From Allomeiothermus silvanus DSM 9946 (GTDB lineage: Bacteria; Deinococcota; Deinococci; Deinococcales; Thermaceae): a stretch of DNA of 64,000 bases. How positions within the stretch are numbered: position 1 is the stretch's first letter; each line of letters starts with the position of its first letter. The translations under genes were made by a program, and so were the position numbers. Under the pieces are notes generated by a model. That model was given only the letters and a program-made list of their open reading frames with translations. It searched no databases and was not told the origin of the DNA. The stretch spans positions 1,880,001 to 1,944,000 of the forward strand of contig NC_014212.1 in assembly GCF_000092125.1 (NCBI RefSeq), given 5' to 3'. This document shows, piece by piece, positions 5,335 to 21,816 of the stretch.

Positions 5335-6729
5335 GGAGATACCATCAAGGGGTGTGGAAATACGCTGAGGGCGGTGTATCCTTCCTCCTGGCAAAAAAGT
5401 GAGGGCTTGAAGCCCGAGGGAGGAGGCACACCGCCATGGGGAAGCGTACCAAAGTGGCTGCTTCGCCGATAGGCGAACACCTTGAGGCCCGTTCGTCATC
5501 TCCCACCTGGGAGACGTTGCGGGATTGGCTGAGGGGGAAGATCCGGGAGTTGATGCAGGGGCTGCTGGAGGAGGAAGTGACGGAATTTCTGGGCCGTGCC
5601 CGGTATGAGAGGCGGGCGGCCGTCGATGCGTGCGGTTACCGCAACGGCTACGGCAAGCCGCGGAAGCTGACGACCTCCATGGGCACCATCGAGGTGCGGC
5701 GGCCCCGGGTCCGGGGGGTGGAGGAGCGGTTCGAGAGCCGGATTCTCCCCCTGTTCGCCCGGCGCACGAGGGAGGTCTCGGAGCTGTTGCCCGAGCTGTA
5801 CCTGCACGGGCTGGCCGAGGGCGACTTCGACCTGGCCCTGCGGGGGCTGCTCGGAGAGGAGGCGGCGCTTTCGGCCCGGACGGTAGCCCGCCTGAAGGAG
5901 CGGTGGCAGGCGGAGTGGGAGGCCTGGCGCACGCAGCGGCTGGACGACCGGGCGGTGGTCTACCTGTGGGTGGACGGGGTGTACGTGAAGGCGGGCTTGG
6001 AGCGCGAGCGGGCGGCGCTCTTGGTGGCCATCGCCGCCTTGTCGGATGGCCGCAAGGTGGTGGTGGCGGTCGTACCCGGGTACCGGGAGTCGGTGGAGAG
6101 CTGGTCGGAAGTGCTGCGGGACCTGCGGGAGCGGGGGATGAACGCGCCGCGGCTGGTGATCGGGGACGGGCACCTGGGGATCTGGGGGGCACTGCGCAAC
6201 GTGTGGCCGGAGGCCGACGAGCAGCGGTGCTGGAACCACAAGGTGCTCAATGTGCTGGAGCAGTTGCCGCGCCACCAGCAGGCCGTGGCCAAGCCCATGC
6301 TGGGGGCCATCGCCTACGCGCCGACCCGGGCGGAGGCGGAACGGAAGGGCAAGGAGTTCGAGGCCTGGTGTCACCGGCACGGCTACGGCAAGGCGGCGCA
6401 GACGCTGGGGCGGGACTGGGAGCGGATGGTGACCTTCTACCGGTACCCCAAGGAGCACTGGCGCCACCTGCGGACCACGAACGTGATCGAATCGCCCTTC
6501 GCCGCACTGCGGCTGCGGACGGATGCGGCCAAGCGGTTCAAGAAGGTGGAACGGGCCACGGCAGTGATCTGGAAGATGCTGATGGTGGCCCAAAAGAGGT
6601 TCCGGCGGTTGAATGCCCCGGAGTTGCTGGCCAAGGTCCACGCCGGGGTGCGCTACGAGGACGGCATCGAGGTCACCCAGGAGGAGGTCGCTGCCTGAGC
6701 AGGTTTACACACCTATTGACGGAACCTCC
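5335..6729 (+). mobile_element. IS256-family insertion sequence
   Basis: About 1395 bp. The imperfect inverted repeats are GGAGATACCATCAAGGGG at the left and its counterpart GGAGGTTCCGTCAATAGG read inward from the right, with roughly 22 of 31 positions matching. Both ends are flanked by the direct repeat GTAAAAA (5328-5334 and 6730-6736). It was inserted into the left end of the prophage, between the transposase sites and the repressor. Codon use differs from the surroundings, and I see no CTCGAG inside it. Confidence 0.92.
5436..6698 (+). CDS. IS256-family transposase
   Basis: 420 aa, full length for the family. The DDE residues are visible: Asp180 in YLWVDGVYVK, Asp244 in VIGDGHLGIWGAL and Glu352 in RTTNVIESPFAALRLR. 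The N-terminal half carries CGYRNGYGKPRK and IEVRRPRVRG, typical of mutator-type transposases. The frame is intact, so the element could be active. The ATG at 5436 lies about 100 bp inside the left inverted repeat; GGGAGGAGG is 15 nt upstream. Confidence 0.95.
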   Translation: MGKRTKVAASPIGEHLEARSSSPTWETLRDWLRGKIRELMQGLLEEEVTEFLGRARYERRAAVDACGYRNGYGKPRKLTTSMGTIEVRRPRVRGVEERFESRILPLFARRTREVSELLPELYLHGLAEGDFDLALRGLLGEEAALSARTVARLKERWQAEWEAWRTQRLDDRAVVYLWVDGVYVKAGLERERAALLVAIAALSDGRKVVVAVVPGYRESVESWSEVLRDLRERGMNAPRLVIGDGHLGIWGALRNVWPEADEQRCWNHKVLNVLEQLPRHQQAVAKPMLGAIAYAPTRAEAERKGKEFEAWCHRHGYGKAAQTLGRDWERMVTFYRYPKEHWRHLRTTNVIESPFAALRLRTDAAKRFKKVERATAVIWKMLMVAQKRFRRLNAPELLAKVHAGVRYEDGIEVTQEEVAA

Positions 6730-7136: not shown

Positions 7137-7800
7137 TGCTCACTGGCCCCTCCCTCAACCAGATCGTAGCAGCCGTGAAGCTGGCCCTCGCAGTCAGTCC
7201 GCGCCTGTGGGGCTGGCGCCACACCCAGGCCATGCTGCACTGGCTCAAAGACCACGGCGACAGCGTACCCGCCCCCGCCACCTTCGCTGAGCGAAAGAAA
7301 GCATCGGCTACTCGGACAGACTGCCCTGGCCGCCTGGGGCCAGCCCCCCGTGCGGTTGCGGCTCGATTCCAAGAAACTCCCAACCGCTGCGCTGGCCCGG
7401 GCTTCCCGGGTGGCCCTGCTGGGCCGAATCGGCCGAGACCACGCGGCGAGGGGGCCTTTCTACGGCCTGCGATTACACGCTGGGGTGGATGAGGCCAACT
7501 GGCTGCGACGGGTGGTGACGGGGGATCGAGGCTACGCAAACCGAAGACGCCGAGTGGCGGCCGCTGCCCAGGGGGTTGGTGACCCCCTGCAAGCGGCCCC
7601 AGCCGCCGGGCGGCTTGCAGGGGCATCGCCTCATCGAGCGTGTCTTTGCCTGCTGGGCGCGACGGGGTTTATCAGGGCCCTACCGCCAGCGCGAAGGCTA
7701 GGTGTGTCCCATCGACGCGGTGCGGCTGGCCTGCGCAAGCGCTTCGAGGCCTATCCCTCACTGCCGCATCTGGGGGTGTACCATCCCCTTTGGCGACGCA
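7137..7800 (+). pseudogene. Decayed DDE transposase (IS982/IS5-like), several frameshifts
   Basis: Pieces of one transposase can be followed through three frames. LTGPSLNQIVAAVKLALAV starts at 7137. From about 7353 comes LDSKKLPTAALARAS, then GPFYGLRLHAGVDEANWLRR and VVTGDRGYANRR. From about 7612 a third frame gives GHRLIERVFACWARRG. The LDSK, FYGLRLHA and GDRGY strings are those of IS982/IS5-type transposases. No intact frame remains, so the element cannot make its own transposase. A GGAGG box precedes the first ATG. Exact ends of the element were not found. Confidence 0.7.
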
Positions 7801-7815
7801 CTGGGCGCTTCCAAA

Positions 7816-8556
7816 CTAGGGTGTATTTTTCAGGTGTTCTTTTCCGAATTGGGGTTCTAAGTCTCTCGGCAGTCGCCTCCGCGCCTCGACCACCGGCCCG
7901 ATGATCCGGTCTACCTCTTCAATCGGAATGGCGGTAGGGCCGTTAGAGGCTAGGGGATTAGCAGAGACCAGATAGCTCCCAGTGCGCTCAACCTTGAGCA
8001 GTTTGCAGATGTACGAGCCGTCTTTGAGTTGGGCAACCACCGGCCAGTTGGGGCGGCCGTTGAAACTCTGATCGACCAGGATGATGTCACCGTGGCAGAT
8101 GGGAAAGCGGCCCGCGCACCCACTGTCGCCGAACACCCGGAAAGCCACGAGGTTGCGGCCCCGGGCTAGTTCAGGCTCGACGTAGATCCCGTTTTCCTCG
8201 GTGAGCTGGCCGGGGCCTGCTCCCACCCATCCCACTAACGGCACCTTAGGGCGAATCAGCTCGTGCTTGTTTTCGCTTTCGTAGTACCGCTCGATCAGAT
8301 CGGTAAGGGGGCGACCCAAGGCCAGCGCGAGGCGCTCCAGAGTTTTTAAATCTGTCTTCATCCAACTGCCCGTGGGGCTCTGCCGGCCCCGGCGCAGGTT
8401 GGATAGGGTGCTCCGGCCGATGCCATGCTTGTCGGCAAACTCGTTGTAGGAGCGAAGCCCCTGCTCCCGGATCGCCTGGTCGATCCAATCATTGAAGGGT
8501 CCATTAAGTTCTGGGTAGAGCCTCGGCCGTCCCCCTTTATTTTTGTTCTCTCCCAC
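7816..8556 (-). CDS. Phage repressor, XRE HTH plus S24 LexA-like domain
   Basis: 246 aa from the GTG at 8556, chosen because GAGGAGG lies 7 nt upstream and the frame further up would run through the divergent promoter. The N-terminal half has a helix-turn-helix (SYNEFADKHGIGRSTLSNLRRG). The C-terminal half matches the LexA/CI S24 fold: FRVFGDSGCAGRFPICHGDIILVD, with the likely nucleophile Ser in GDSG, and a candidate catalytic Lys in GSYICKLLKVE. The usual GDSM is GDSG here. The lysogenic repressor of the prophage is the obvious role, perhaps inducible by RecA-stimulated self-cleavage. It is the only prophage gene on the minus strand apart from IS genes. Confidence 0.88.
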   Translation of the reverse strand: MGENKNKGGRPRLYPELNGPFNDWIDQAIREQGLRSYNEFADKHGIGRSTLSNLRRGRQSPTGSWMKTDLKTLERLALALGRPLTDLIERYYESENKHELIRPKVPLVGWVGAGPGQLTEENGIYVEPELARGRNLVAFRVFGDSGCAGRFPICHGDIILVDQSFNGRPNWPVVAQLKDGSYICKLLKVERTGSYLVSANPLASNGPTAIPIEEVDRIIGPVVEARRRLPRDLEPQFGKEHLKNTP

Positions 8557-8575
8557 AACCCCTCCTCTAAAGTCC

Positions 8576-8625
8576 TTGACAAAGGTATTCACTGTTGAGA
8601 ATACTGGTATTCGCGTATGCGAACA
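8576..8625 (+). promoter_or_regulatory. Phage early promoter with operator half-sites
   Basis: TTGACA at 8576-8581, an 18-bp spacer and AATACT at 8600-8605, followed after 11 nt by the ATG of the Cro-like gene, so the mRNA is nearly leaderless. Repressor-like half-sites overlap it: GTATTC (8585-8590), its inverse GAATAC (8599-8604), GTATTC again (8607-8612) and GCGAAC (8619-8624). The divergent repressor starts at 8556, so one operator region probably controls both directions. Confidence 0.78.
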
Positions 8626-8868
8626 GCCGAACCTACACCGTTTGCCAGGGAGGTTCACTACCTGATGCGTCGGCAAGGACTCAAACCTGCCGAGGTAGCT
8701 CGCAGAGCTGGGCTGGCCCCCTCTTACCTGTCGGAGATCCTTAGCGGGACGAAAGGCAAACGCCCGTCAGGTCGGGTCATTGTCGCTCTGGCTCGGGCGT
8801 TGGGAGTTGAAGGGGAGTGCCTCCTGGATCCCCGGCGCTATCAGCACGTTGCTCACGAAAGGGAATAG
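8617..8868 (+). CDS. Cro/Ner-like helix-turn-helix regulator
   Basis: 83 aa. The HTH reads MRRQGLKPAEVARRAGLAPS followed by YLSEILSGTKG, with the rest of a five-helix XRE domain up to LARALGVEGECLLDP. It is the first gene of the rightward early operon, divergent from the S24 repressor and directly upstream of the transposase, which is the place of ner in Mu and cro in lambda. The start sits 11 nt behind the -10 box, so translation is probably leaderless. Confidence 0.87.
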   Translation: MRTAEPTPFAREVHYLMRRQGLKPAEVARRAGLAPSYLSEILSGTKGKRPSGRVIVALARALGVEGECLLDPRRYQHVAHERE

Positions 8869-8871
8869 GTT

Positions 8872-10983
8872 ATGCCAATCTGGAGTGACACAAGCAAACG
8901 CACTCTTTACTCAACCCGAGAGGTTGCCCAGGCGTGGTGCAGGTCAGAGCGTACGGTTCGCCTCTGGGCATCTAGGCCGGGGGTGTTCACTGAGGTGATC
9001 GCTGAGATTCGGCCTGACGGGGGCAGTGGGAAGGGCGGGCTTTACTTCGATGTAGATACCCTCATTCCGGTCTTTGGTCACCCGGTCAATCCTCTCCCCA
9101 AAACTGAAGCCCCGGCTCCTGTGAGTGCAGCCCCGCTGGTTGCTGTGGCTCCGCCGCTCGAGCCTTACGCTCCCCGTCCCCTCACCCCCATGCCCGACCT
9201 GCGCCAGGCCAACCCCGAGGGGCTGGCCTGGGCCACCCGTGTGGACACCCTGGCCCGCGAGCTGGTCGCGGTGCCGCGTGGAGGGCGGCTTCAGCGGCTC
9301 CAGGCTTTCGCCAAGCAGGAGGGGGTCACGCTTAAAACGGTGTACCAATGGCTTGCCAAGCTGAAGCGGAACGGCGTGCTGGGCCCGGTCAGGCTCAAAC
9401 GGGCTGATGCCGGGAAGAGCCTGATCCCTCCGGAGACGGAGAGCGTACTGATGAGCCTCTGGCTCCATCACCCCAACTTCTCCGCCGGGCGCATCCGCCG
9501 CCTGCTGGAACTCGGGGCGCCCGAACTCCTGACCTACCGCCACGGTAGCAGGTGCCGCACCCTATCCGAGCGTGGTATCCGCGACGTGCGCCGCCGCATG
9601 GAGGCCGACCCGCGGATGCGGGTGGCGCTGATGGATGAAGACCAGCGCCGGGAGTTTTTGCGCACCTGGGCTGGGCGGGTCGTTGCTGAGCATGCAAACG
9701 ATTTGTGGGAGGTGGACTTCACCCGCTGTGACACCTTCGTCTTCGACCCGCAGGAGTACTGGCGCACCGGCAAGCTCACCCCCTATCGCCTGCGCATCCA
9801 CGCCGCCCTCGACGTGGCCAGCGGGTGCGTGCCGGCGATGGTCCACTCGCGGCTGGAGAGCCAGCAGCCCACCAGCCGCATGTTTGCCCTGGCTATGCTG
9901 CCCAAGCCCGAGGTCAACGACTGGCACCTGCGCTGGCCGATCTGGGGCCGGCCACGCCGGGTTTACAGCGACAACGGCAAGGTGTATCTGTCGGAGACTA
10001 CACTGCGGGGGCTGAGTGCCCTGCAGATCGAGCACGTGCGCTCGCGGGCCTGGGTCAGCCACACCCGTGGGGCGATTGAGCGGTTTTTCGAGACCTTCCA
10101 CCGGGGCTTCGAGCGGGCACTGCCCGGCTACGCCGGGGAAGACGCCAGCCGCCGCAGCAGTTGGGAGCTGGAGCGGTTAACGCGGAACACACTTCGCTGG
10201 CTCGAAGCCGGAGCCCCCGCCGACCAGGACCCGGGCCCCGACCGGCTGCTGAGCGAGGCCGAGTATATGCAGCAGGCCCTACTCTGGCTGACGATGGACT
10301 ATCACAAACAGGCCCTTCCCGGTGGCAAGTCCCGGGAGGAGCTGTGGCGGCAGAGCGTGCCCCAGAGCAGCCTTGTGCAATTCAGCTTGATCGATTTATT
10401 CAAGATCTTCAGCACGGCCACCGAGCGCACGGTGGCCGGGAACGGGACGATCCGCTACAACAACATGACCCTGGCCCTCGAGGACGGCTCCCTGATGGCG
10501 TACCAAGGCCAGCGCGTGGTGGTGCTCGAGATCGAAAACCCGCTAACCGGAGAGCCGGCATACTCGCTGCAGCTCCCGCGCCCCGACGGCACTCTGGCCG
10601 AGCTGGGGTGGGCGGTAGAGGTGGACGGTCCCGCGCTGTCGGAGCGTGCCCGCGCCCACCGCCAGGCCACCCGGGCGCAAGCCCGGGCGCTGTTGCGGGA
10701 GGCCGAGGACCTCAGGGCACGCTACCTGGATCCCACCTGGCGGCAGGACACCATCCTCAGCCGCTCGGCCCAGGTGCCCCTCGAGCGCATCTCGCTCCCT
10801 GCCCCAGGCCCTAAGGTGGTGCTGGACCAGGGCGATACCCCGCAGGCCCAGCAGCGGCGCCAGCAGCTCGAGCTAGAGCGGCAGGCCCAAGACGACCCGC
10901 TGCTGCAGAGCATTCTCACCCTCATGAATCCAACAGCACCGTTGTCGGACGGTGCTGAGGAGAAAGAAAGGAGACAACTGTGA
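8872..10983 (+). CDS. MuA-like DDE transposase
   Basis: 703 aa, similar to MuA in size. Near the N-terminus is an HTH-like part (YSTREVAQAWCRSERTVRLW), then a second helical DNA-binding region (EGVTLKTVYQWLAKLKRNG). The integrase core carries Asp282 (LWEVDFTRCD), Asp367 (YSDNGKVYL) and Glu403 (HTRGAIERFFETFHRG), a clean DD(35)E. A Mu-type C-terminal beta-barrel region and a charged tail follow. It cuts and joins the prophage ends and is expected to bind the L and R sites listed here. The start is 3 nt after the HTH gene, and the stop overlaps the MuB-like start. Confidence 0.95.
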   Translation: MPIWSDTSKRTLYSTREVAQAWCRSERTVRLWASRPGVFTEVIAEIRPDGGSGKGGLYFDVDTLIPVFGHPVNPLPKTEAPAPVSAAPLVAVAPPLEPYAPRPLTPMPDLRQANPEGLAWATRVDTLARELVAVPRGGRLQRLQAFAKQEGVTLKTVYQWLAKLKRNGVLGPVRLKRADAGKSLIPPETESVLMSLWLHHPNFSAGRIRRLLELGAPELLTYRHGSRCRTLSERGIRDVRRRMEADPRMRVALMDEDQRREFLRTWAGRVVAEHANDLWEVDFTRCDTFVFDPQEYWRTGKLTPYRLRIHAALDVASGCVPAMVHSRLESQQPTSRMFALAMLPKPEVNDWHLRWPIWGRPRRVYSDNGKVYLSETTLRGLSALQIEHVRSRAWVSHTRGAIERFFETFHRGFERALPGYAGEDASRRSSWELERLTRNTLRWLEAGAPADQDPGPDRLLSEAEYMQQALLWLTMDYHKQALPGGKSREELWRQSVPQSSLVQFSLIDLFKIFSTATERTVAGNGTIRYNNMTLALEDGSLMAYQGQRVVVLEIENPLTGEPAYSLQLPRPDGTLAELGWAVEVDGPALSERARAHRQATRAQARALLREAEDLRARYLDPTWRQDTILSRSAQVPLERISLPAPGPKVVLDQGDTPQAQQRRQQLELERQAQDDPLLQSILTLMNPTAPLSDGAEEKERRQL

Positions 10984-11831
10984 CAGGAAACAGTATATCA
11001 CAGGACTTCGGCGACCCCATGATCGAGGCGATCCAAGCGGCGATGGGCGGGGCGGTTTTCGACGTGGCCCAGCTTGAGCAGCCGGGGTTGATCCCCACCC
11101 GCACCGTGACCAGCATCTGGAGCAAGCTGGCCTTCGCGGTGGCCAACGAGGTGCGCTTCGCCCTGGTGCACGGACCGGCGGGGGTAGGCAAGACCGAGAG
11201 CGTGATGGAGTTCGCCCGCAATCCTGCTGCGGCATTGGCCAAGCTGCGGCAGACTGGAACCCAGGTGGCCTGGAACCAGAATGTCGAGACGATTTACCTG
11301 CAGTGCTTACCCCAGATGGACAACTACCAGATGCTCATTGAGCTAGCCCGTGTGCTGAAGGCGTCGCGGACAATCAACAACCGCTACCTGATCCACGTGG
11401 TGCGGGACGCGCTGGCCCTGCAGCGGCGGATGGTGGTGCTTGACGAGGCCCAGCGCCTGAACCTGCATGGCCTCGATACTGCGAAGTACCTGGCCGATAC
11501 TACCGGCACCACCTTTGTCCTGATCACGATGGATGAGTACGTGCCCAAGATTCGGCAATGGCGCGACATCGAAAGCCGGATCGGGGTGGTGGCGCAGGTA
11601 GGCCCGGTGACCCTAGAGGAGTTGCAGCGCATCTACGAGCCCCAGGGCTGGCGCAGGGACGCCCTGCAGGAGACCCACATGGTTACCGGCGGCATTATGC
11701 GTGATGTGGTGAGGCTGATTCGACTGCTGGAGCGGGCGATTGAGCTCAACGGCAAAACCCCTGGCGATGTGCTGCCGCTGTACGTGCGGGCTGCTGCCAG
11801 CCAGCTTCACATGACAGGGGGGCGGCGGTGA
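10980..11831 (+). CDS. MuB-like AAA+ ATPase, transposition target selector
   Basis: 283 aa. Walker A VHGPAGVGKTES (Lys71) and Walker B MVVLDEAQRL (Asp155) are clear, followed by a sensor-like FVLITMDEY. The family activates MuA and delivers target DNA. The GTG start overlaps the transposase stop (GTGA), so the two are translationally coupled, as expected for an A-B pair. The short C-terminal domain ends LYVRAAASQLHMTGGRR. Confidence 0.92.
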   Translation: MTGNSISQDFGDPMIEAIQAAMGGAVFDVAQLEQPGLIPTRTVTSIWSKLAFAVANEVRFALVHGPAGVGKTESVMEFARNPAAALAKLRQTGTQVAWNQNVETIYLQCLPQMDNYQMLIELARVLKASRTINNRYLIHVVRDALALQRRMVVLDEAQRLNLHGLDTAKYLADTTGTTFVLITMDEYVPKIRQWRDIESRIGVVAQVGPVTLEELQRIYEPQGWRRDALQETHMVTGGIMRDVVRLIRLLERAIELNGKTPGDVLPLYVRAAASQLHMTGGRR

Positions 11832-14705: not shown

Positions 14706-14724
14706 CCCGCCACGCCGTGGCGGG
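14706..14724. terminator. Phage intergenic hairpin 1
   Basis: CCCGCCAC-gcc-GTGGCGGG forms a perfect 8-bp stem with a 3-nt loop, widened by CCCCCC/GGGGG sequences outside. No T-run follows. The core is the same as the larger hairpin at 24731-24769. It separates two gene blocks, so it may stop or slow transcription. Confidence 0.5.
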
Positions 14725-14779
14725 AAGCCGGGGGCTTTCCGAGGGAGGACGCTCTGCTGGGCAGGAGCAGGAGGTGGAC

Positions 14780-15259
14780 ATGGAACTCACAGAGATCGGA
14801 TGGCTAGGCCTGGTCGCCCTGATCGTGGGCTGGGTGGCTGGTGGGCAGGTGGTTGGAGGCGGTATCAGCGTAAGTGCCAGCGTCCTCCTGACGGCGGCCC
14901 CGGTGCACATCTACGTCACCCCAATCACCGTCTGGAGGCTGACCCACAACCAGCTTGTGGAGCGGTTGTGGGGAACCGGCTTTACCCTGGGCGGCACGGT
15001 GGTTTACGTGGATCCCCGGCCGCCAGCGACCCAGATGCCCGAGCGCGACATCAACAGCCTGCGAACCATGATAGAGCAATACGAGCTGGGGCACATCCTG
15101 GGCTGGAGGCACTACGGGCTAGAATACCTTCACCAGATAGCCCACGAAGCCTGCCGGTACGACCCCAAAGCCCTGTGGGCGGTGCACTGCCGTAACGACC
15201 ACAGACCCCCACAAATCCTGCTGCCGCATACCGGCGCCATCCGGGTGGTGCTGCCATGA
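14780..15259 (+). CDS. Phage membrane protein with metzincin-like motif lacking first His
   Basis: 159 aa; GGAGG sits 7 nt before the ATG. The N-terminus (WLGLVALIVGWVAGGQVVGG, then SVSASVLLTAAP) holds one or two membrane segments. The outer domain contains YELGHILGWRHYG, which fits the zinc motif HExxHxxGxxH of metzincin-type peptidases except that the first His is Tyr. Either this is an inactivated or differently liganded peptidase fold, or the match is chance. The position next to another membrane protein and before the packaging genes would fit a lysis or cell-surface role, but that is inference. Confidence 0.55.
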   Translation: MELTEIGWLGLVALIVGWVAGGQVVGGGISVSASVLLTAAPVHIYVTPITVWRLTHNQLVERLWGTGFTLGGTVVYVDPRPPATQMPERDINSLRTMIEQYELGHILGWRHYGLEYLHQIAHEACRYDPKALWAVHCRNDHRPPQILLPHTGAIRVVLP

Positions 15260-15957
15260 ACGCGCATCTGCGAAACACACTGATTGCGTTGCTGGCGCTC
15301 GCCTACCTGGCGACCCTGGTGATGTCGGCCGGCCACCTGACCAAGTGGTTTGACCTCAGCTTGGGCGAGCTGCCCCGGTTTTTCTCTATTGGCCTGGCGG
15401 TGGGCCTGGAGCTGCTGGCCTTTACCCTTAGCCTGGCCAGCACCCTCGAGCCCCGCCTGCGCTGGAGCCTGGCTGGTGGTCTGTTCTTCTTATTGCTGGT
15501 CTGGCTGGGCAACCTGCTGGCAATGGCCCGCGTGGCCAACGCCCCCGGCTGGGAGGTGTTCGCCCAGAGCCTGTTTGCCCTGGGGCCGCTGGTCGCGGGT
15601 AAAGCCATTGGAGAGCTGCTACGGCTGGAGCGGCCCGGACGGCCACCGTCCGCCGACCTTTCAACAAGCGGACAGAGGGTCCACGTCCAGACCCACGTTC
15701 ACACCACTACGGTCCACCAGGCGCTCCAGGTCACGGACCGGATGAGTTCATCAACCCAGCCCGGAAAACCGGACGAACGGGTGGAACAACTGCTGGCCGT
15801 TCTATCCGGCCAGCCCCTGGGACCTTCCGCCCTGGCCCGGCGGACCGGACTACCCAAGACCACGGTCTACCGGCTGACCGCCCGACTGCTCGAGGCCGGA
15901 CTGATTGCGCAGACCCCGGGCGGATACGTCCGCACAGAGGTGGAGCGTGGCCGGTAA
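15256..15957 (+). CDS. Membrane protein with C-terminal winged HTH domain
   Basis: 233 aa. Four hydrophobic helices (about residues 8-24, 40-60, 68-90 and 98-115) form a membrane part. A His/Thr-rich linker (VHVQTHVHTTTVHQ) follows, then a winged helix at about 172-225 with SALARRTGLPKTTVYRLTAR and LLEAGLIAQTPGGYVR. Membrane-bound HTH proteins can be one-component sensors. In this phage it could read a membrane state or tether DNA. The start overlaps the previous stop, so it is coupled to the metzincin-like gene. Confidence 0.6.
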   Translation: MNAHLRNTLIALLALAYLATLVMSAGHLTKWFDLSLGELPRFFSIGLAVGLELLAFTLSLASTLEPRLRWSLAGGLFFLLLVWLGNLLAMARVANAPGWEVFAQSLFALGPLVAGKAIGELLRLERPGRPPSADLSTSGQRVHVQTHVHTTTVHQALQVTDRMSSSTQPGKPDERVEQLLAVLSGQPLGPSALARRTGLPKTTVYRLTARLLEAGLIAQTPGGYVRTEVERGR

Positions 15958-16387
15958 CCTGGAACGCTGGCGGGCGGAGCACACCGCTAAATACCTCTGG
16001 TGGGTGGCGCATGGCGTGCGGGGCTGGCAGTCCGACCGGATCAGCTACGCCCCAGAAACAGACCGTTTGGCCGCACGACCAAAACAGCCTGGATACCTGG
16101 TCATCCAGGTGATGGCGCTGCCCGAGATCGGTATCGACCGCCATACGCTGCGGCTGTGGCGGTCGGACTACCAGGCCCTGCTGGATCGGACCGATCCGGC
16201 TATCAAAGATGAGTGGGCGGCGTTCCTTCACCGTGCCCGATGGTCTAGCCTGTGGTATTTCGACGCGAGGAACAGGCGGATTCGTCCCGGGAACGAGCAC
16301 CGCGGACTGACCGCCTGGACCCTCGAGCTGGGTCGACTGGCCGAGGTACTGCCCGGCGGAAAACCAGCCACCCAGCAAAATATCTGA
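15947..16387 (+). CDS. Unrecognised phage protein, 146 aa
   Basis: The GTG at 15947 follows AGAGGTGG and overlaps the end of the previous gene. It starts MAGNLERWRAEHTAKYLWWV and is rich in Trp and Arg (LHRARWSSLWYFDARNRRIR). No membrane segment or known motif is seen. A terminator-like hairpin follows it. Confidence 0.55.
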   Translation: MAGNLERWRAEHTAKYLWWVAHGVRGWQSDRISYAPETDRLAARPKQPGYLVIQVMALPEIGIDRHTLRLWRSDYQALLDRTDPAIKDEWAAFLHRARWSSLWYFDARNRRIRPGNEHRGLTAWTLELGRLAEVLPGGKPATQQNI

Positions 16388-17044: not shown

Positions 17045-17365
17045 ATGGAGCGTCTGGATCGTATAGAGGCGCAGATAGGCGATCTGCGGGAGGAATTGCG
17101 TGGGCTGCGGTTGGCCCAGACACTCACCAATCGGGAGCTGCACGAAACCTTGGGTGTGTTGCGAACCGTGCTGGAGCAGGTCAGTCGACAATCCCGCCCA
17201 CCCCGCCTGCAGATCTGGGCGACCATTGCCATCGGCCTGGCGAGCTTTGGGCTGGGTTTTACCGCCCACTGGCGCATCTCAGAGATCGAGGAGGTGAGGC
17301 ATGTCCAGTTTGTTCTACCCCCGCGAGCCCCGGTGCAAAATTTGCAACAGTCCGATTCGCGATGA
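17045..17365 (+). CDS. Small phage membrane protein with N-terminal coiled coil
   Basis: 106 aa. Residues 1-50 are a coiled coil (RIEAQIGDLREELRGLRLAQ), then one membrane segment WATIAIGLASFGLGFTAHW at about 58-76 and a short tail. The start is 2 nt after the previous stop, and its end overlaps the next gene by 65 nt in another frame. A lysis accessory role is possible but only inference. Confidence 0.55.
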   Translation: MERLDRIEAQIGDLREELRGLRLAQTLTNRELHETLGVLRTVLEQVSRQSRPPRLQIWATIAIGLASFGLGFTAHWRISEIEEVRHVQFVLPPRAPVQNLQQSDSR

Positions 17366-17837
17366 GATTGACCAGATGCTGCTGGGCAATCAACTGACCG
17401 AGCATGGCGAGCGCTGGTGCCTGGAGGCGATTGTGGAGTGGGCTCGGGAGAGAGGGTTGAACACCAGCATGGCGGCCCTTTCGCGGCATAAGAACAACCA
17501 CCTCAATCCGGCCGTTCAGGCCGCCCTGGAGACCGAGCGGATGGTGGAGGCCATCAGCGCGGCCACCGGCCGTAAGCTCAGCGTGGCCAGGGCCTATGCC
17601 AACGCGGTGCTCGCCAAGACCCTGCGGATTCTCGACGACCTGGAGTGGGACAGGCTGGACACCGACCAGAAGTTACGCGCTGTAACACACGGCCTGCGGG
17701 CCGGCGAGGTTTTGTCCAGACTGGAGCGAGCCGACGTGCGGCAGGAGGTGGCGACCAAGGTCGAGAAAACTCTGTCGGAAGCTGGCATCAGCCAGGATCT
17801 GCTGCAAAAGGTGCGGGAGATTTATGGACTGGCCTAA
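17301..17837 (+). CDS. Small terminase-like protein (Mu gp27 type)
   Basis: 178 aa. It starts MSSLFYPREPRCKICNSPIR with a CxxC pair, then a helical region with an HTH-like MAALSRHKNNHLNPAVQAAL and a coiled C-terminal half (ADVRQEVATKVEKTLSEAGI). The call rests on position: it sits directly before the large terminase and overlaps its start by 14 nt. A GAGGTGAGGC ribosome site precedes the ATG. Sequence alone would not identify it. Confidence 0.65.
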   Translation: MSSLFYPREPRCKICNSPIRDEIDQMLLGNQLTEHGERWCLEAIVEWARERGLNTSMAALSRHKNNHLNPAVQAALETERMVEAISAATGRKLSVARAYANAVLAKTLRILDDLEWDRLDTDQKLRAVTHGLRAGEVLSRLERADVRQEVATKVEKTLSEAGISQDLLQKVREIYGLA

Positions 17838-19107
17838 TACTGGCTTGTTGCTGCCGTATCAACGGGCCTGGATCGAGGACCAGAGCCGCTTCAAAATCGG
17901 GCTGTGGTCGCGGCAGGTTGGTAAGAGCTTTGCAGCCTCCCTGGAGGCCGTGCTGGACTGTGTGGCGCACCCGCGCAGCCTGTGGGTTTTTCTCTCGCGG
18001 GGGGAACGCCAGAGTAAAGAGCTGGCCGAGAAGGCCCAGAGGCACCTGGAGGCCATCCAGGTGGTGGCTGAGATGTACGACGAGCCCTTCGACGCCGAGT
18101 CCACCCAGACGGTGATCCGGCTGCCCAACGGTTCTCGCATCATCAGCCTACCAGCTAACCCAGACACCGCCAGGGGCTACTCAGGCAACGTGCTTTTGGA
18201 TGAATTTGCCCTGCACAAGGACTCCCGCGAGATCTGGGGAGCCCTCTACCCCACCATCACCCGCTCCAAACGGTACCGGCTGCGGGTGCTCTCCACTCCC
18301 AAGGGCCAGCAAGGCAAATTTTACGAGATCTGGCAGCCCGAGCCCGGCGGAGATCTGTGGAGCCGCCACCGGGTGGACATCTACGACGCGGTGCAGCAGG
18401 GCCTGGAGGTGGATCCGGAGGAACTGCGCAAGGGCCTCAAGGACCCGGTTCTGTGGCAGCAGGAGTACCTACTCGAGTTCGTGGACGAGGCCTCTGCCTG
18501 GCTGCCCTACGAACTAATTACAAGCTGCGAGAGCTCGCAGGCCCGTACCGATGGAGCACTGGAAGGAGATCTGTACCTGGGCATGGACATCGGCCGCCAC
18601 CGCGACCTCAGCGTGATCTGGGTGGCTGAACGCGTGGGGGACGTGCTCTGGACACGCCGGGTGATCTGGCTCGAGCGCACCCCCTTTGCCACCCAGCGAG
18701 AGGTTTTATACAGCCTCTTGCCACAGGTGCGCCGAGCCTGCATCGACGCCTCCGGCCTGGGCATGCAGCTGGCCGAGGAGGCGCAAAGCCGCTTTGGCAG
18801 CAGGGTGGAGCCGGTGATGTTTACCCGCGCGGTCAAAGAGGATCTGGCCGTTACGCTGCGACGGAAATTTGAGGATCGCCTGATCCGCATACCCCCCGAC
18901 GACCGCATCCGTGAGAGCCTGCACGCCGTGCGACGCATCACCACCAGCGCAGGCCACATCCGCTTCGATGCCGATCGCGATGATGCAGGCCACGCCGACG
19001 AGTTCTGGGCCGCAGCTTTGATGGCCCACGCGGCGGCCAGCCCCAGCGGGCCCATCACCTTCGAGCGGGTCGGCTGGGGCCGTATGAGCCAAAAAGGAGC
19101 CTGGTAA
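17824..19107 (+). CDS. Large terminase subunit (Mu gp28-like)
   Basis: 427 aa. The ATPase part has Walker A WSRQVGKSFAAS near residue 36 and Walker B NVLLDEFAL near 125. The RNase H-like nuclease part starts YLGMDIGRHRDLSVIWV (Asp near residue 255), with a second acidic site at CIDASGLGMQLAEE and a third near DADRDDAGHADEF. It packages DNA into a prohead. The gene is intact although no capsid gene was found in this prophage. Confidence 0.92.
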   Translation: MDWPNTGLLLPYQRAWIEDQSRFKIGLWSRQVGKSFAASLEAVLDCVAHPRSLWVFLSRGERQSKELAEKAQRHLEAIQVVAEMYDEPFDAESTQTVIRLPNGSRIISLPANPDTARGYSGNVLLDEFALHKDSREIWGALYPTITRSKRYRLRVLSTPKGQQGKFYEIWQPEPGGDLWSRHRVDIYDAVQQGLEVDPEELRKGLKDPVLWQQEYLLEFVDEASAWLPYELITSCESSQARTDGALEGDLYLGMDIGRHRDLSVIWVAERVGDVLWTRRVIWLERTPFATQREVLYSLLPQVRRACIDASGLGMQLAEEAQSRFGSRVEPVMFTRAVKEDLAVTLRRKFEDRLIRIPPDDRIRESLHAVRRITTSAGHIRFDADRDDAGHADEFWAAALMAHAAASPSGPITFERVGWGRMSQKGAW

Positions 19108-20642
19108 TGTGGCTGACAGAGCAAATTGCTAAACTGCTGGGCCGCAAACCCCCTGTTGCGCCGCTGCCACACCCTGTCAGCGGGCGCGTCATCAGCGGGA
19201 CTTCGCGGGGCCTGGAGCCGGAGGGCCTGGCTGCTATCCTGCGGCAGGCCGAACAGGGCGATCTGACCCGGCAGATGGAACTTTTTGAGGAGATCGAGGA
19301 GAAAGATGCGTATTTGGCGAGCCTTTTGCAAACGCGCAAGCAGGCGGTGCTGGCCCTGGACTACGCGGTGCTACCCGCCGACGATTCGCCGGCGGCGAGG
19401 CAAATCTCGGACGAGGTGAGCGCGCTATTGCAGCATATCAACTTGCAGGACCTGCTGCTGGATCTGCTGGACGCGATTGCTAAAGGTCTGAGCGTGATTA
19501 CCATGCGCTGGGAGTACGATCGGGACAGCCGGCGCCAGCTGCCCACCGAATTCACCTGGATTCATCCGCGAGACCTGCTCTATGATCCGCAAACCGGCGA
19601 ACTGCGTCTGCGCACCCAGGATGGCCCGCAGAGCATTCCCTACGGCGCGGCCCTGGTGCATCACTACAAGGCCAAGTCGGGCGCGCCGTCCCGCGCCGGG
19701 CTGCTGCGCAGCCTGGCCTGGCTGTACCTGTTCAAGAACTACAGCATCAAGGACTGGATTACCTTCCTGGAACAATACGGCCAGCCCCTGGTGCTGGGCA
19801 AGTACGATCCCACCGCCAGTAAGGACGAGCTCAACGCCCTCAAAGAGGCGGTGGCGGCCATCGGGCCGGAGGGCCGCGGGGTCATCTCCAAAGCCACCGA
19901 GATCGAATTCAAGGAATCGCAACGCTACGGCACTGCCGACGCTTACAGCCGCTTCATCGAGCTAATGGAGCGGGAGATGGCGGTAGCCATCACCGGCTCT
20001 CCGCTCTCGAGCTTCGATGGCAGCGGCGGCTCCAATGCGATGGCGCTTACCCTGGATAAGATCTCCCAGCGGCTGACGCGTTCGGATGCCAAAGCGGTCT
20101 ACAGCACCTTGCGCCGCGACCTGGTGGTGCCCTTCTGCCATTACAACTTTGACCGGGCCGACCTGGCCCCCCGCCTCGAGCCCATCCTGCGTGAGCCGGA
20201 GGACCTGAAGGTGGCTGCCGAGACCATCAAAACCCTGGTGGATGCTGGCGCGCCCATACCGTTGCGCTACATCCACGACCGCTTTCAGATCCCGGTGCCG
20301 CAAGCAGACGAGCCGGTTCTGGCCCCCTCCAGGGCGGGGGTGACCGGGCGGGGCGTCAGGCTGGCATCGGGGGATGCCCGCGGGGCGCGGGGATTTATCA
20401 ACGGGCAGCTGTACGTGGACGGGCTGGACGAGGTGGCCCGGGCCGAGGCGGCGCCGATTCTGAATGACCTCATCGAGCGCATCGCAGCTATGGCAAACCG
20501 GCACCACAGCTATTCGGATTTGCGGGAGGCGCTGGTACGGGAGTACCCCAGCCTGGCCAAGCCGGTGCTGGCCGAGCTGATCGAGGGCAGCCTGGTGCTG
20601 GCCGAGCTGGCCGGGCGCGCTGCAGTAGACGAGGACATCTGA
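19107..20642 (+). CDS. Portal protein, DUF935 family (Mu gp29-like)
   Basis: 511 aa, the usual size. The region LFEEIEEKDAYLASLLQTRK then QAVLALDYAVLPADDS is the typical start of DUF935 portals. A FTWIHPRDLLYDPQTGELRL segment and SGAPSRAGLLRSLAWLYLFK stretch follow in family order, then ERLMEREMAVAITGSPL-like core residues. The ATG overlaps the terminase stop by one base. Portals form the dodecameric ring for DNA passage. Confidence 0.92.
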   Translation: MWLTEQIAKLLGRKPPVAPLPHPVSGRVISGTSRGLEPEGLAAILRQAEQGDLTRQMELFEEIEEKDAYLASLLQTRKQAVLALDYAVLPADDSPAARQISDEVSALLQHINLQDLLLDLLDAIAKGLSVITMRWEYDRDSRRQLPTEFTWIHPRDLLYDPQTGELRLRTQDGPQSIPYGAALVHHYKAKSGAPSRAGLLRSLAWLYLFKNYSIKDWITFLEQYGQPLVLGKYDPTASKDELNALKEAVAAIGPEGRGVISKATEIEFKESQRYGTADAYSRFIELMEREMAVAITGSPLSSFDGSGGSNAMALTLDKISQRLTRSDAKAVYSTLRRDLVVPFCHYNFDRADLAPRLEPILREPEDLKVAAETIKTLVDAGAPIPLRYIHDRFQIPVPQADEPVLAPSRAGVTGRGVRLASGDARGARGFINGQLYVDGLDEVARAEAAPILNDLIERIAAMANRHHSYSDLREALVREYPSLAKPVLAELIEGSLVLAELAGRAAVDEDI

Positions 20643-20643
20643 T

Positions 20644-21816
20644 ATGGCCTGGAATGTTGATGCTGATCCGCTCCAGCCAGCCGAGGCCACCGACTGGTTC
20701 CGGCGCAAGCTCAATCTACGCAAGGACGAATACAGACAACTGACCGACCGCGCCCGACGGCGAGCCTTCACGGTGGCTGGCGTGGCCTCCCTGGACCTTC
20801 TGGCCGAGGTACACCGCAGCCTGCTGGAAGCCCTTGTGCAGGGAACCCCCTACCAGGCCTGGGCCCAGAACCTGGGGCCGACGCTGGCGGCAGCCTGGGG
20901 GACGACCAACGGCTACCGGCTCAAACTGGTCTTCCAGCAGAACATCCTCTCGGCCTATGCGGCCGGTCGTTACGCCCAGCTCACCGACCCGGAGGTGCTG
21001 CGGGCCCGGCCATACTGGATGTTCGACGCGGTGCTGGATAGTGCGACCACCGAGACCTGCCGGCAGCTCAACGGGGTCGTCCTGCCCCACGATCACCCGC
21101 TCTGGGCAAAAAACTACCCCCCGCGCCACTTCGCTTGCAGGAGCGGGATACGCAGTCTAACCGTCCGGGAAGCCCAGGAAAGGGGGATAACGGAGAACCC
21201 GCCGGAGGTCCAGGCCGAGGCAGGATTTGGATTGCGTTCCGACCCGTCGGAGTGGGGGCGCGACTGGGCCCGGGGGGTGGCCACCAGCGCCAGCAGCGCA
21301 CGCTGGCAACCGGCGTTTGCCGGCACACCGCCAGACTGGCGCACATACGGCCGGCCCGAGGCCATTCCACGGGATCGGTTGCCCCCAGACCTCCTGGTAC
21401 CCTCCATCAGCGAGGTGGGTGAAGCCGGCTTCCGCCGTGCGCTGGCGCGGGCCTGGGGCGGCCTGGAGGTGGTGGTGGCCGATCCCACCGGGGCGGGAAC
21501 CATTCTCAACGCCCGGGTGCTGCTGGAGCACCTTAGCCGCGAACCGCCGGATGACCGGGAGCGCTACTACGGCCTCTTGCCGGATGTGGTGGCAAACCCC
21601 TACGAGATCTGGTTGGTACCGCTACAGTCGGATCGTGGGGCGGTAGCCTTTCGCAAGTATTACCTCAAGCTCTATGGAGACAAAGAGCGGGCCTTCCTTC
21701 TGGTGGTGGAGCAGCAGCGGGGAAGCACCTGGACCGCGTATACCCACATCTACAGCAGCAAGAAACGGTATATCGCCGACCGGCGGATTGGTTTTCTGCT
21801 GTGGGGGAGGGATTGA
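20644..21816 (+). CDS. MuF head protein fused to PBECR-like nuclease/toxin domain
   Basis: 390 aa. The first 180 residues are the MuF/SPP1 gp7 domain: FRRKLNLRKDEYRQLTDRAR, NILSAYAAGRYAQLTDPEVL, RPYWMFDAVLDSATTETCRQ and HPLWAKNYPPRHFACRSGIR. After a variable linker, the last 120 residues (EVVVADPTGAGTILNARVLL, YEIWLVPLQSDRGAVAFRKY and ERAFLLVVEQQRGSTWTAYT) match the pattern of PBECR (barnase/EndoU/colicin/RelE-like) toxin domains known as MuF tails. Such tails may be injected with DNA. The stop codon TGA (21814-21816) lies inside the terminal TTGA of the IS605-like element, so the last codon or codons were changed by the insertion. No immunity gene follows. Confidence 0.85.
   Translation: MAWNVDADPLQPAEATDWFRRKLNLRKDEYRQLTDRARRRAFTVAGVASLDLLAEVHRSLLEALVQGTPYQAWAQNLGPTLAAAWGTTNGYRLKLVFQQNILSAYAAGRYAQLTDPEVLRARPYWMFDAVLDSATTETCRQLNGVVLPHDHPLWAKNYPPRHFACRSGIRSLTVREAQERGITENPPEVQAEAGFGLRSDPSEWGRDWARGVATSASSARWQPAFAGTPPDWRTYGRPEAIPRDRLPPDLLVPSISEVGEAGFRRALARAWGGLEVVVADPTGAGTILNARVLLEHLSREPPDDRERYYGLLPDVVANPYEIWLVPLQSDRGAVAFRKYYLKLYGDKERAFLLVVEQQRGSTWTAYTHIYSSKKRYIADRRIGFLLWGRD

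Follow-up and report, generated by a model that had tools for sequence, protein, structure and literature searches.

The gene at positions 15256-15957 of the window (the whole stretch of 64,000 nucleotides from Allomeiothermus silvanus DSM 9946; the source assembly has 3.72 Mb in 3 contigs) lies within a Mu-like prophage, 1.3 kb ahead of gp27 and the terminase. It encodes a membrane protein that ends in a winged helix, and the question is what DNA such a protein would bind and for what purpose. The preliminary description suggested a one-component membrane sensor controlling late genes or lysis timing. The type-specific array of short sites found within this gene in related phages points instead to a tether of element DNA or an autoregulator. 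The reading that we favour, and to which we give an even chance, is that of a membrane-anchored DNA-binder whose winged helix is bound to the array in its own gene, tethering phage DNA to the membrane. The protein is composed as follows.

15256-15957, plus strand: membrane protein with a C-terminal winged helix (ORF of 233 aa with an ATG start; relatives; models)
15256-15627, plus strand: membrane domain of four helices (AlphaFold domain model; invariant columns in the alignment)
15628-15768, plus strand: disordered His/Thr-rich linker, residues 125-171, the fast-changing part of the swapped cassette (pLDDT below 50; identity comparison)
15772-15954, plus strand: IclR-like winged helix, residues 173-233, with the recognition helix within GLPKTTVYRLTARL (Pfam; fold matches)

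The membrane domain folded alone forms a four-helix bundle (AlphaFold, mean pLDDT 91.8, pTM 0.81) with membrane-length helices at residues 3-36, 41-64, 69-93 and 98-123; only helices 1-3 pass the Kyte-Doolittle threshold of 1.6. Residues invariant in 18 aligned domains include S24, H27, G37, P40, E52, N86, K116, G119 and E120. The linker, which contains VHVQTHVHTTTVH, has pLDDT below 50 at residues 124-171 of the full model. The winged helix is modelled mostly at pLDDT 75-90, with helices at residues 174-183, 190-197 and 201-213 and strands at 217-220 and 223-226. Pfam HTH_IclR matches residues 184-221 (E=2.8e-9, above the curated cut-off). Foldseek finds IclR and CggR DNA-binding domains for the C-terminus at probability 1.00, yet none with E below 0.001; MarR and ArsR types also come up with VIA-align (Z about 9). 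Models and Pfam thus agree with the architecture initially described from the letters, that is, four membrane helices, a His/Thr-rich linker and a C-terminal winged HTH in one phage gene; the structure predictions (AlphaFold, Foldseek) do contain the winged helix, and the same fusion recurs in other phages. The mean pairwise identity in 21 aligned sequences is 64% for the membrane domain, 36% for the winged helix and 19% for the linker. An HTH-like C-terminus is present in 18 aligned relatives.

The prophage can be assigned to Mu-like phages, as the transposase, MuB-like ATPase, gp27, terminase, Mu portal and F protein occur in Mu order.

7816-8676, minus strand: LexA/CI-type phage repressor (Peptidase_S24 1.1e-10, HTH_3 4e-6)
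8872-11831, plus strand: MuA-like transposase and MuB/TniB-like ATPase (rve 1.9e-5, below the curated cut-off; AAA_22 3.3e-12 and TniB 4.2e-5, above theirs)
14717-15259, plus strand: upstream gene, overlapping the membrane protein gene by 4 bases (ORF with a hydrophobic stretch and a ELGHILGWRHYG stretch)
15905-16387, plus strand: downstream partner gene, start TTG at 15905 or GTG at 15947
17301-17837, plus strand: Mu gp27-like terminase small subunit (Pfam PF11985, 1.9e-10)
17824-19107, plus strand: terminase large subunit (Pfam PF03237, 1.4e-25)
19107-20642, plus strand: Mu-type portal (Pfam PF06074, 7.8e-90)

The downstream gene, g16702, gp27 and gp28 are each present in all 24 Mu-like loci examined. 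Profile searches gave no significant family match for the downstream gene, nor for the upstream one (Pfam and PHROG-type searches). The upstream product has a hydrophobic stretch at its residues 24-63, followed by the ELGHILGWRHYG stretch, which we take to resemble a metalloprotease-like motif. This gene was initially considered to be a second membrane protein coupled to the first one. The overlap and the hydrophobic stretch agree with that; however, of the 28 other loci compared, no more than four have a homologue (L002, L034, L035, L036; L003 is the window's own copy), and thus the coupling of the two genes is not a conserved feature. Elsewhere in the window, the Mu F-like protein at 20644-21816 is fused to a PBECR2 nuclease domain (4.3e-24) and is possibly an injected nuclease. 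A transposase-like ORF at 5436-6698, presumably an IS256-type element, lies immediately to the left of the prophage.

Among 111 genomes of the phylum, 32 have a match to the protein at E<=0.001. The match reaches the membrane domain in 20 of them and is essentially limited to the HTH part in 12. Named sources of relatives include Meiothermus taiwanensis, M. hypogaeus, Calidithermus, Thermus scotoductus and T. brockianus. The 29 relative loci compared consist of 18 Mu-like ones, counting the window's own copy and duplicates between collections, and 11 others. In locus L037 the gene stands among conjugation genes, including those of a TraG/VirB4-type ATPase and a type IV coupling protein, directly preceded by an SLT transglycosylase and directly followed by a VirB11/SpoIIIAA-like ATPase. 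Among the matches listed, the coupling protein, the SLT protein and the VirB11-like ATPase have homologues in 10 of the 11 non-Mu loci, the exception being L031. The non-Mu loci are mostly type IV secretion (T4SS) clusters. These clusters are not evidently ICETh1 of T. thermophilus, since the latter is TdtA-based and the terms 'VirB' and transglycosylase are absent from the available excerpts of its two papers. No match to the window protein came up in a tblastn search of 50,697 phage records, and in plasmids the matches were confined to the HTH part. A role in defence was considered and rejected, as the PADLOC matches fall on the HTH part, the longest extending back to residue 137.

Four relatives from the T4SS clusters (L045:14275-15003, L046:9253-10059, L048:9342-10148, L050:9499-10170) have the fourth helix first in the membrane domain. 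With helix 4 moved to the end the profile matches in one piece, whereas the native order gives two (for L048, 8.8e-19 against 3.9e-14 and 0.014). Judged by sequence, the membrane domain of these copies is a circular permutation, which would flip the topology unless helix 4 does not cross the membrane. A relative in Thermus sp. 2.9 contig10 (L049/L066) is split over two reading frames and is either a broken copy or an assembly error. Relatives on metagenome-assembled contigs labelled Anaerolineae and Hydrogenophilus (L053, L065) are close to Meiothermus and Thermus copies, and perhaps these labels are binning errors.

Comparison of phage copies indicates that the linker and the winged helix are replaced together, as a cassette, while the membrane domain in front of them hardly changes. 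In L060 and L051 the membrane domains are 100% identical over 121 residues and the winged helices only 39%; in the Thermus phages L074 and L083 the values are 98% and 32%. The DNA of L074 and L075 is 99% identical at 7341-8360 and 98% identical beyond position 9273, and the stretch separating these two parts does not align. In L074/L075 the change of the winged helix is accompanied by a change of the downstream gene (47% identity), whereas in L060/L051 the downstream gene is 97% identical. The repressor and the transposase do not track the winged-helix type.

The 3' parts of these genes contain arrays of short motifs. A first repeat search in three loci revealed repeated GGTACC in L060 and CCGAACG in L075. 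Counts of GGTACC are 9 in L060, 13 in L063, 14 in L034, 5 in L041 and 3 in L042; of TGGCCA, 13 in L074, 15 in L078 and 9 in L081; of CTGAAC, 8 in L062 and 9 in L051; of CCGAAC, 21 in L083, 18 in L075 and 20 in L072. For these four motifs the motif-by-gene table of 33 genes is nearly diagonal. Thus, GGTACC has 3-14 copies in six genes, whose recognition helix is in every case GWPK[T/S]TVRRW, whereas the other 27 genes contain 0-1 copies; TGGCCA has 9-15 copies in three genes and 0-2 in the other 30. The remaining pairs of recognition helix and motif are GWPRTT[V/L]RRY with TGGCCA, GIPKSTLAGK with CTGAAC and GMSKSTLHVR with CCGAAC. Both L060 and L063 carry GGTACC although their linkers are 32% and their winged helices 63% identical, and related winged helices (62-63% identical) carry motifs one base apart, CTGAAC and CCGAAC. 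In the phage copies compared, the array motif goes with the recognition helix. However, the linker and the winged helix are physically linked, and thus the swap alone is no proof that the winged helix reads the array.

Motif counts in L060, L034, L074, L051 and L083 are higher than in any of 2000 codon-permuted or 2000 usage-resampled genes, and the copies in these arrays fall in two or three reading frames. The codon-permuted maximum (n=2000) is exceeded in 10 of the 13 genes of the four motif types, the exceptions being L041, L042 and L081. Among seven further gene-motif pairs it is exceeded in L071 and L046 and not in L067, L055, L069, L047 and the window gene (CGGACC). Helical phasing at a period of 10.5 bp has p<0.05 in 10 of 13 arrays under a simple placement null, where the phasing of L041 rests on one pair and the best period of L083 and L075 is 6.9; it is not significant in L047, L046 and L055.

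With all 6-mers tested against codon-permuted versions, 10 family genes out of 33 have p=0 of 400; when the permutation of codons is confined to the 3' part, p<0.01 for 6-mers persists in 7 genes out of 26 (L067, L071, L063, L060, L074, L083, L046) and does not in L041, L042, L062, L051, L081 and L047. Codon-permutation p-values are liberal: among 70 control genes from these phages, 17 have p<0.05 and 5 have p<0.01. On the other hand, z>5 is seen for this gene in 6 of 10 loci and for none of the 70 control genes. When every k-mer is scanned over whole loci, this gene contains the start of the top cluster in 17 of the 21 phage loci for K=5 and in 16 for K=6, with about 1 expected, the 21 loci being related rather than independent. 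If one locus per type is retained, the numbers are 9 of 12 (K=5, P=2.5e-10 for random placement) and 8 of 12 (K=6, P=1.2e-8). In L076 the top cluster begins at the 3' edge of the gene. Arrays in L042, L055, L069 and L053 are weak, and no significant array was found in P74p12, phiC31 gp25 and L093. In the non-Mu loci the top cluster lies in this gene in only one case of nine and elsewhere in eight. Most non-Mu copies are devoid of a standout array, and if the tether idea is right, their sites would be elsewhere or lost. Strong k-mer clusters outside the gene, possibly iterons or other repeats, were observed in the non-Mu loci L045:19504-19900, L048:14346-14490, L044:2098-2400 and L043:2292. A cluster of CGATAG repeats at L057:19368-19700 is perhaps CRISPR-like.

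The gene of the window contains a weaker cluster.

15636-15932, both strands, all three frames: candidate array of nine CGGAC/GTCCG sites (k-mer scan)

The candidate sites are at 15636, 15648, 15669, 15734, 15770, 15841, 15846, 15897 and 15928. CGGAC forms the strongest 5-mer cluster in the 32.2 kb prophage (log10p -9.9, next best -6.6); the top 6-mer cluster of the prophage lies outside this gene. Against codon permutation, CGGAC alone has p=0.021, the motif having been picked after inspection, and all k-mers together are not significant (p=0.75 for the whole gene, 0.35 and 0.09 for the 3' part). A search for direct repeats in the window found none, and the recognition-helix class of the window protein (PKTTVYRL) has no single motif so clearly common to it. 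The CGGAC cluster may be an array of the same kind as in the phage relatives. The core of this candidate array recurs at L055:1621-1920, where six copies of CGGACA beside the repressor gene form the strongest 6-mer cluster of that phage locus.

The winged helix probably binds the arrays, and tethering may be the purpose of the protein. Under this proposal, the gene of a Mu-like phage would produce a membrane-anchored protein in which a long flexible linker joins a four-helix domain to an interchangeable winged helix. The DNA encoding the linker and the winged helix would carry an array of short sites, in most arrays whole helical turns apart, matching the specificity of the protein's own winged helix. 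Once inserted into the membrane, the protein would bind the array of the gene that encodes it as well as the arrays of further copies of the element, and many bound molecules would hold the phage DNA against the membrane, so that the gene would be both the anchor and the anchoring site. In Mu-like phages the protein would keep phage copies at the membrane, possibly for packaging, as the gene lies near the terminase genes. In conjugative relatives it would present the element DNA to the transfer machinery. If the arrays are indeed the protein's own sites, one gene holds both anchor and site, and therefore they move and diverge as a unit.

Sites inside the gene of their own binder have a precedent in lambda O, whose gene contains the binding-site repeats (excerpts of PMC4488673). 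Clustered repeats of this type are present in the phage relatives and weaker in the window copy, binding here being predicted. On the other hand, the sites of O are a replication origin, whereas the window phage is Mu-like, and O is not known to be a membrane protein. Another parallel is p16.7 of phi29, also a phage membrane protein, for which we know of no in-gene site array; it is proposed to recruit phage DNA to the membrane (excerpts of PMC4974454). In the partial collection of literature searched, no paper was recognised that describes a membrane protein whose binding sites lie within the gene encoding it.

The tether is the simplest account, and its main rival is membrane autoregulation, a rather unlikely but substantial alternative. 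Here the membrane domain would sense a state of the membrane or envelope, the winged helix would control transcription, and the array would be an autoregulatory operator or a roadblock for the gene itself and the packaging genes downstream. Indeed, the winged helix belongs to a regulator class (IclR/MarR) and the array is upstream of the packaging genes. A recognised group of transmembrane transcription regulators, which includes BcrR, likewise combines a DNA-binding domain and membrane helices in one chain, and the word 'phage' does not occur in the text of the paper on them (PMC10269533). However, the family considered here differs from the BcrR type in the dense in-gene array of its phage members and in the linker, which is long, disordered and unconserved. 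Moreover, an operator usually needs fewer sites than the 9-21 seen here. Finally, apart from the right arm, no promoter site that follows the type was found outside the gene in the stretches compared. On the L060 side, the gene's own 3' part is the only type-specific segment in 20.8 kb. When three GGTACC-type phages were compared, one 59-bp left-arm segment and several right-arm segments were type-specific, all overlapping ORFs.

Several operator candidates were rejected. A segment beside the repressor gene co-varied with the type in L074/L075, yet is absent from L081, which has the same winged-helix type, and thus was dropped. The segment L062:302-383 and other left-arm segments, seen in the comparison of the three GGTACC-type phages, merely reflect where the compared pieces end, the DNA there being 96-100% alike in all.

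One could also think that a different protein reads a genuine array, such as the downstream product, a host factor or a TraB/clt-like translocase, while the winged helix has other targets; we regard this as improbable. It would fit the joint change of the downstream gene and the cassette in L074/L075, and TraB does read repeats in Streptomyces plasmids (excerpts of PMC3583192). However, the nearly identical downstream genes of L060 and L051 accompany different motifs, and the motif tracks the recognition helix across phages with unlike linkers. The array bound by the protein's own winged helix remains the preferred interpretation.

It is very unlikely that the repeats are a by-product of a repetitive linker protein (slippage or amino-acid repeats) with no meaning at the DNA level. 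Such an origin fits L071, where the spacing is regular and 12 of 12 copies are in one frame, and a part of L083. In L060 and L063, however, the copies are irregularly spaced and occupy all three frames, and for L060, L063 and L034 this explanation is already contradicted. In addition, the copies extend into the winged-helix part, are type-specific and are in excess over codon permutation.

A lysis or superinfection-exclusion protein with an incidental winged helix is hardly credible: the gene does lie between the early regulators and gp27, where Mu keeps its lysis genes, but relatives stand in conjugation clusters, the HTH-like C-terminus is shared by the aligned relatives, and holins appear in the BFVD fold search only at probability 0.12-0.20, so that a holin reading found support neither in fold nor in context. 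Thus, of the role initially suggested, the one-component membrane regulator survives as the rival discussed above, whereas control of late genes or lysis timing found no support: no operator following the type was seen outside the gene in the compared stretches, the right arm apart, holins come up only at low probability, and relatives stand in conjugation clusters.

More distant kin of the membrane domain were found in other mobile elements. The family profile identified gp12 of Thermus phage P74-26 (domain E 2.5e-11 among 304 ORFs). Three relatives (5e-6 to 5e-5) and the family profile match phrog_26929, the family of gp12, but the window protein on its own does not. In the fold search with the membrane domain alone (BFVD, Foldseek), A7XXH4 of P74-26, taken as gp12 from its length of 200 aa, ranks first (TM 0.81, rmsd 2.1). 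The next ranks (TM 0.62-0.74) include two DUF2637 proteins, an HTH protein of mycobacteriophage MalagasyRose, phiC31 gp25 and a 'putative excisionase' of Rhodococcus phage RGL3; the E-values of these membrane-domain matches are only 0.0014-0.19. DUF2637 A0A6J7WR29 (TM 0.65), Jace (0.65) and phiC31 gp25 (0.62) have probability 0.99-1.00 and E 0.007-0.19. A search of PDB gave no clear match to the membrane domain (best Z 7.4). The gp12 proteins of P74-26 and P23-45 have the same membrane domain and a C-terminal DNA-binding domain. However, in P74-26 the tail is of the HTH_17/excisionase type rather than IclR-like, the gene sits between those of DNA polymerase and ribonucleotide reductase, and it has no significant in-gene array.

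The relation to DUF2637 is one of fold. The window protein has no match to PF10935 (DUF2637) at E<=1, and none was found in its genome, but this profile is insensitive, since only L092 of seven DUF2637-like proteins scanned passes its cut-off. Alignment of the membrane domain with DUF2637 by hhalign gave a probability of 0.07% (E 0.7, 9 columns) from shallow alignments (Neff about 2.5). As the profile-profile comparison provided no link, we speak of a shared fold and not of family membership: according to the models, the membrane domain resembles DUF2637/SpdB2-type proteins in fold. They share with it the four-helix membrane domain, a linker and the setting in mobile elements, and several DUF2637-like proteins of Streptomyces plasmids and phiC31 gp25 end, by eye, in an HTH-like segment (L088 has a weak Pfam HTH_23 match, E 0.02). 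On the other hand, their tail is not IclR-like but of another family, and the window copy has a phage terminase in its vicinity rather than a TraB-like translocase. The stretch covered around phiC31 gp25 contains no annotated packaging or transfer gene, and SpdB of pIJ101 has no Pfam match, DUF2637 included. SpdB2 of pSVH1 is reported to be an integral membrane protein that oligomerises, interacts with TraB and binds DNA, the binding being non-specific (excerpts of PMC4170104).

In-gene arrays were found in Streptomyces plasmids as well. Eight genes were considered, five annotated as DUF2637 (L088, L091-L094) and three L088-like ones (L095, pSN22, pJV1); from gene order, we take this set to be spdB2. 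Six of them carry arrays at p=0 of 300: GCTCAC/CGCTCA in L088, L091, pSN22 and pJV1, and GTGAAC/TGAACA in L092 and L094, whose C-terminal segment differs. The other two have p 0.023 (L095) and 0.26 (L093), and three phiC31-type genes have p 0.017, 0.16 and 0.22. The plasmid arrays differ from the clt repeats of pJV1, given as CCGCACA[C/G][C/G] in the excerpts of PMC3583192. A CGCACA cluster just after traB in pSN22 is in keeping with the clt motif so given.

Somewhat tentatively, we suggest that these proteins may form an unnamed class of self-targeting membrane DNA anchors, common to Mu-like Thermaceae phages and Streptomyces conjugative plasmids. Its members would combine a conserved four-helix membrane domain and an exchangeable DNA-binding tail with a cognate in-gene array, often helically phased, giving an anchor plus centromere in one gene that evolves by cassette swapping. 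The new point is the DNA-level array in the gene, beyond the protein architecture. If true, a mobile element would be held at the membrane by a cis-acting mechanism, and there would be a working idea for the little-studied DUF2637/SpdB2-type proteins. The phage copies would also provide matched winged-helix types and candidate sites (GGTACC, TGGCCA, CTGAAC, CCGAAC) on nearly identical membrane domains. In the Streptomyces plasmids L088 and L110, a gene annotated as 'Pycsar system effector family protein' directly or shortly follows the DUF2637-like gene.
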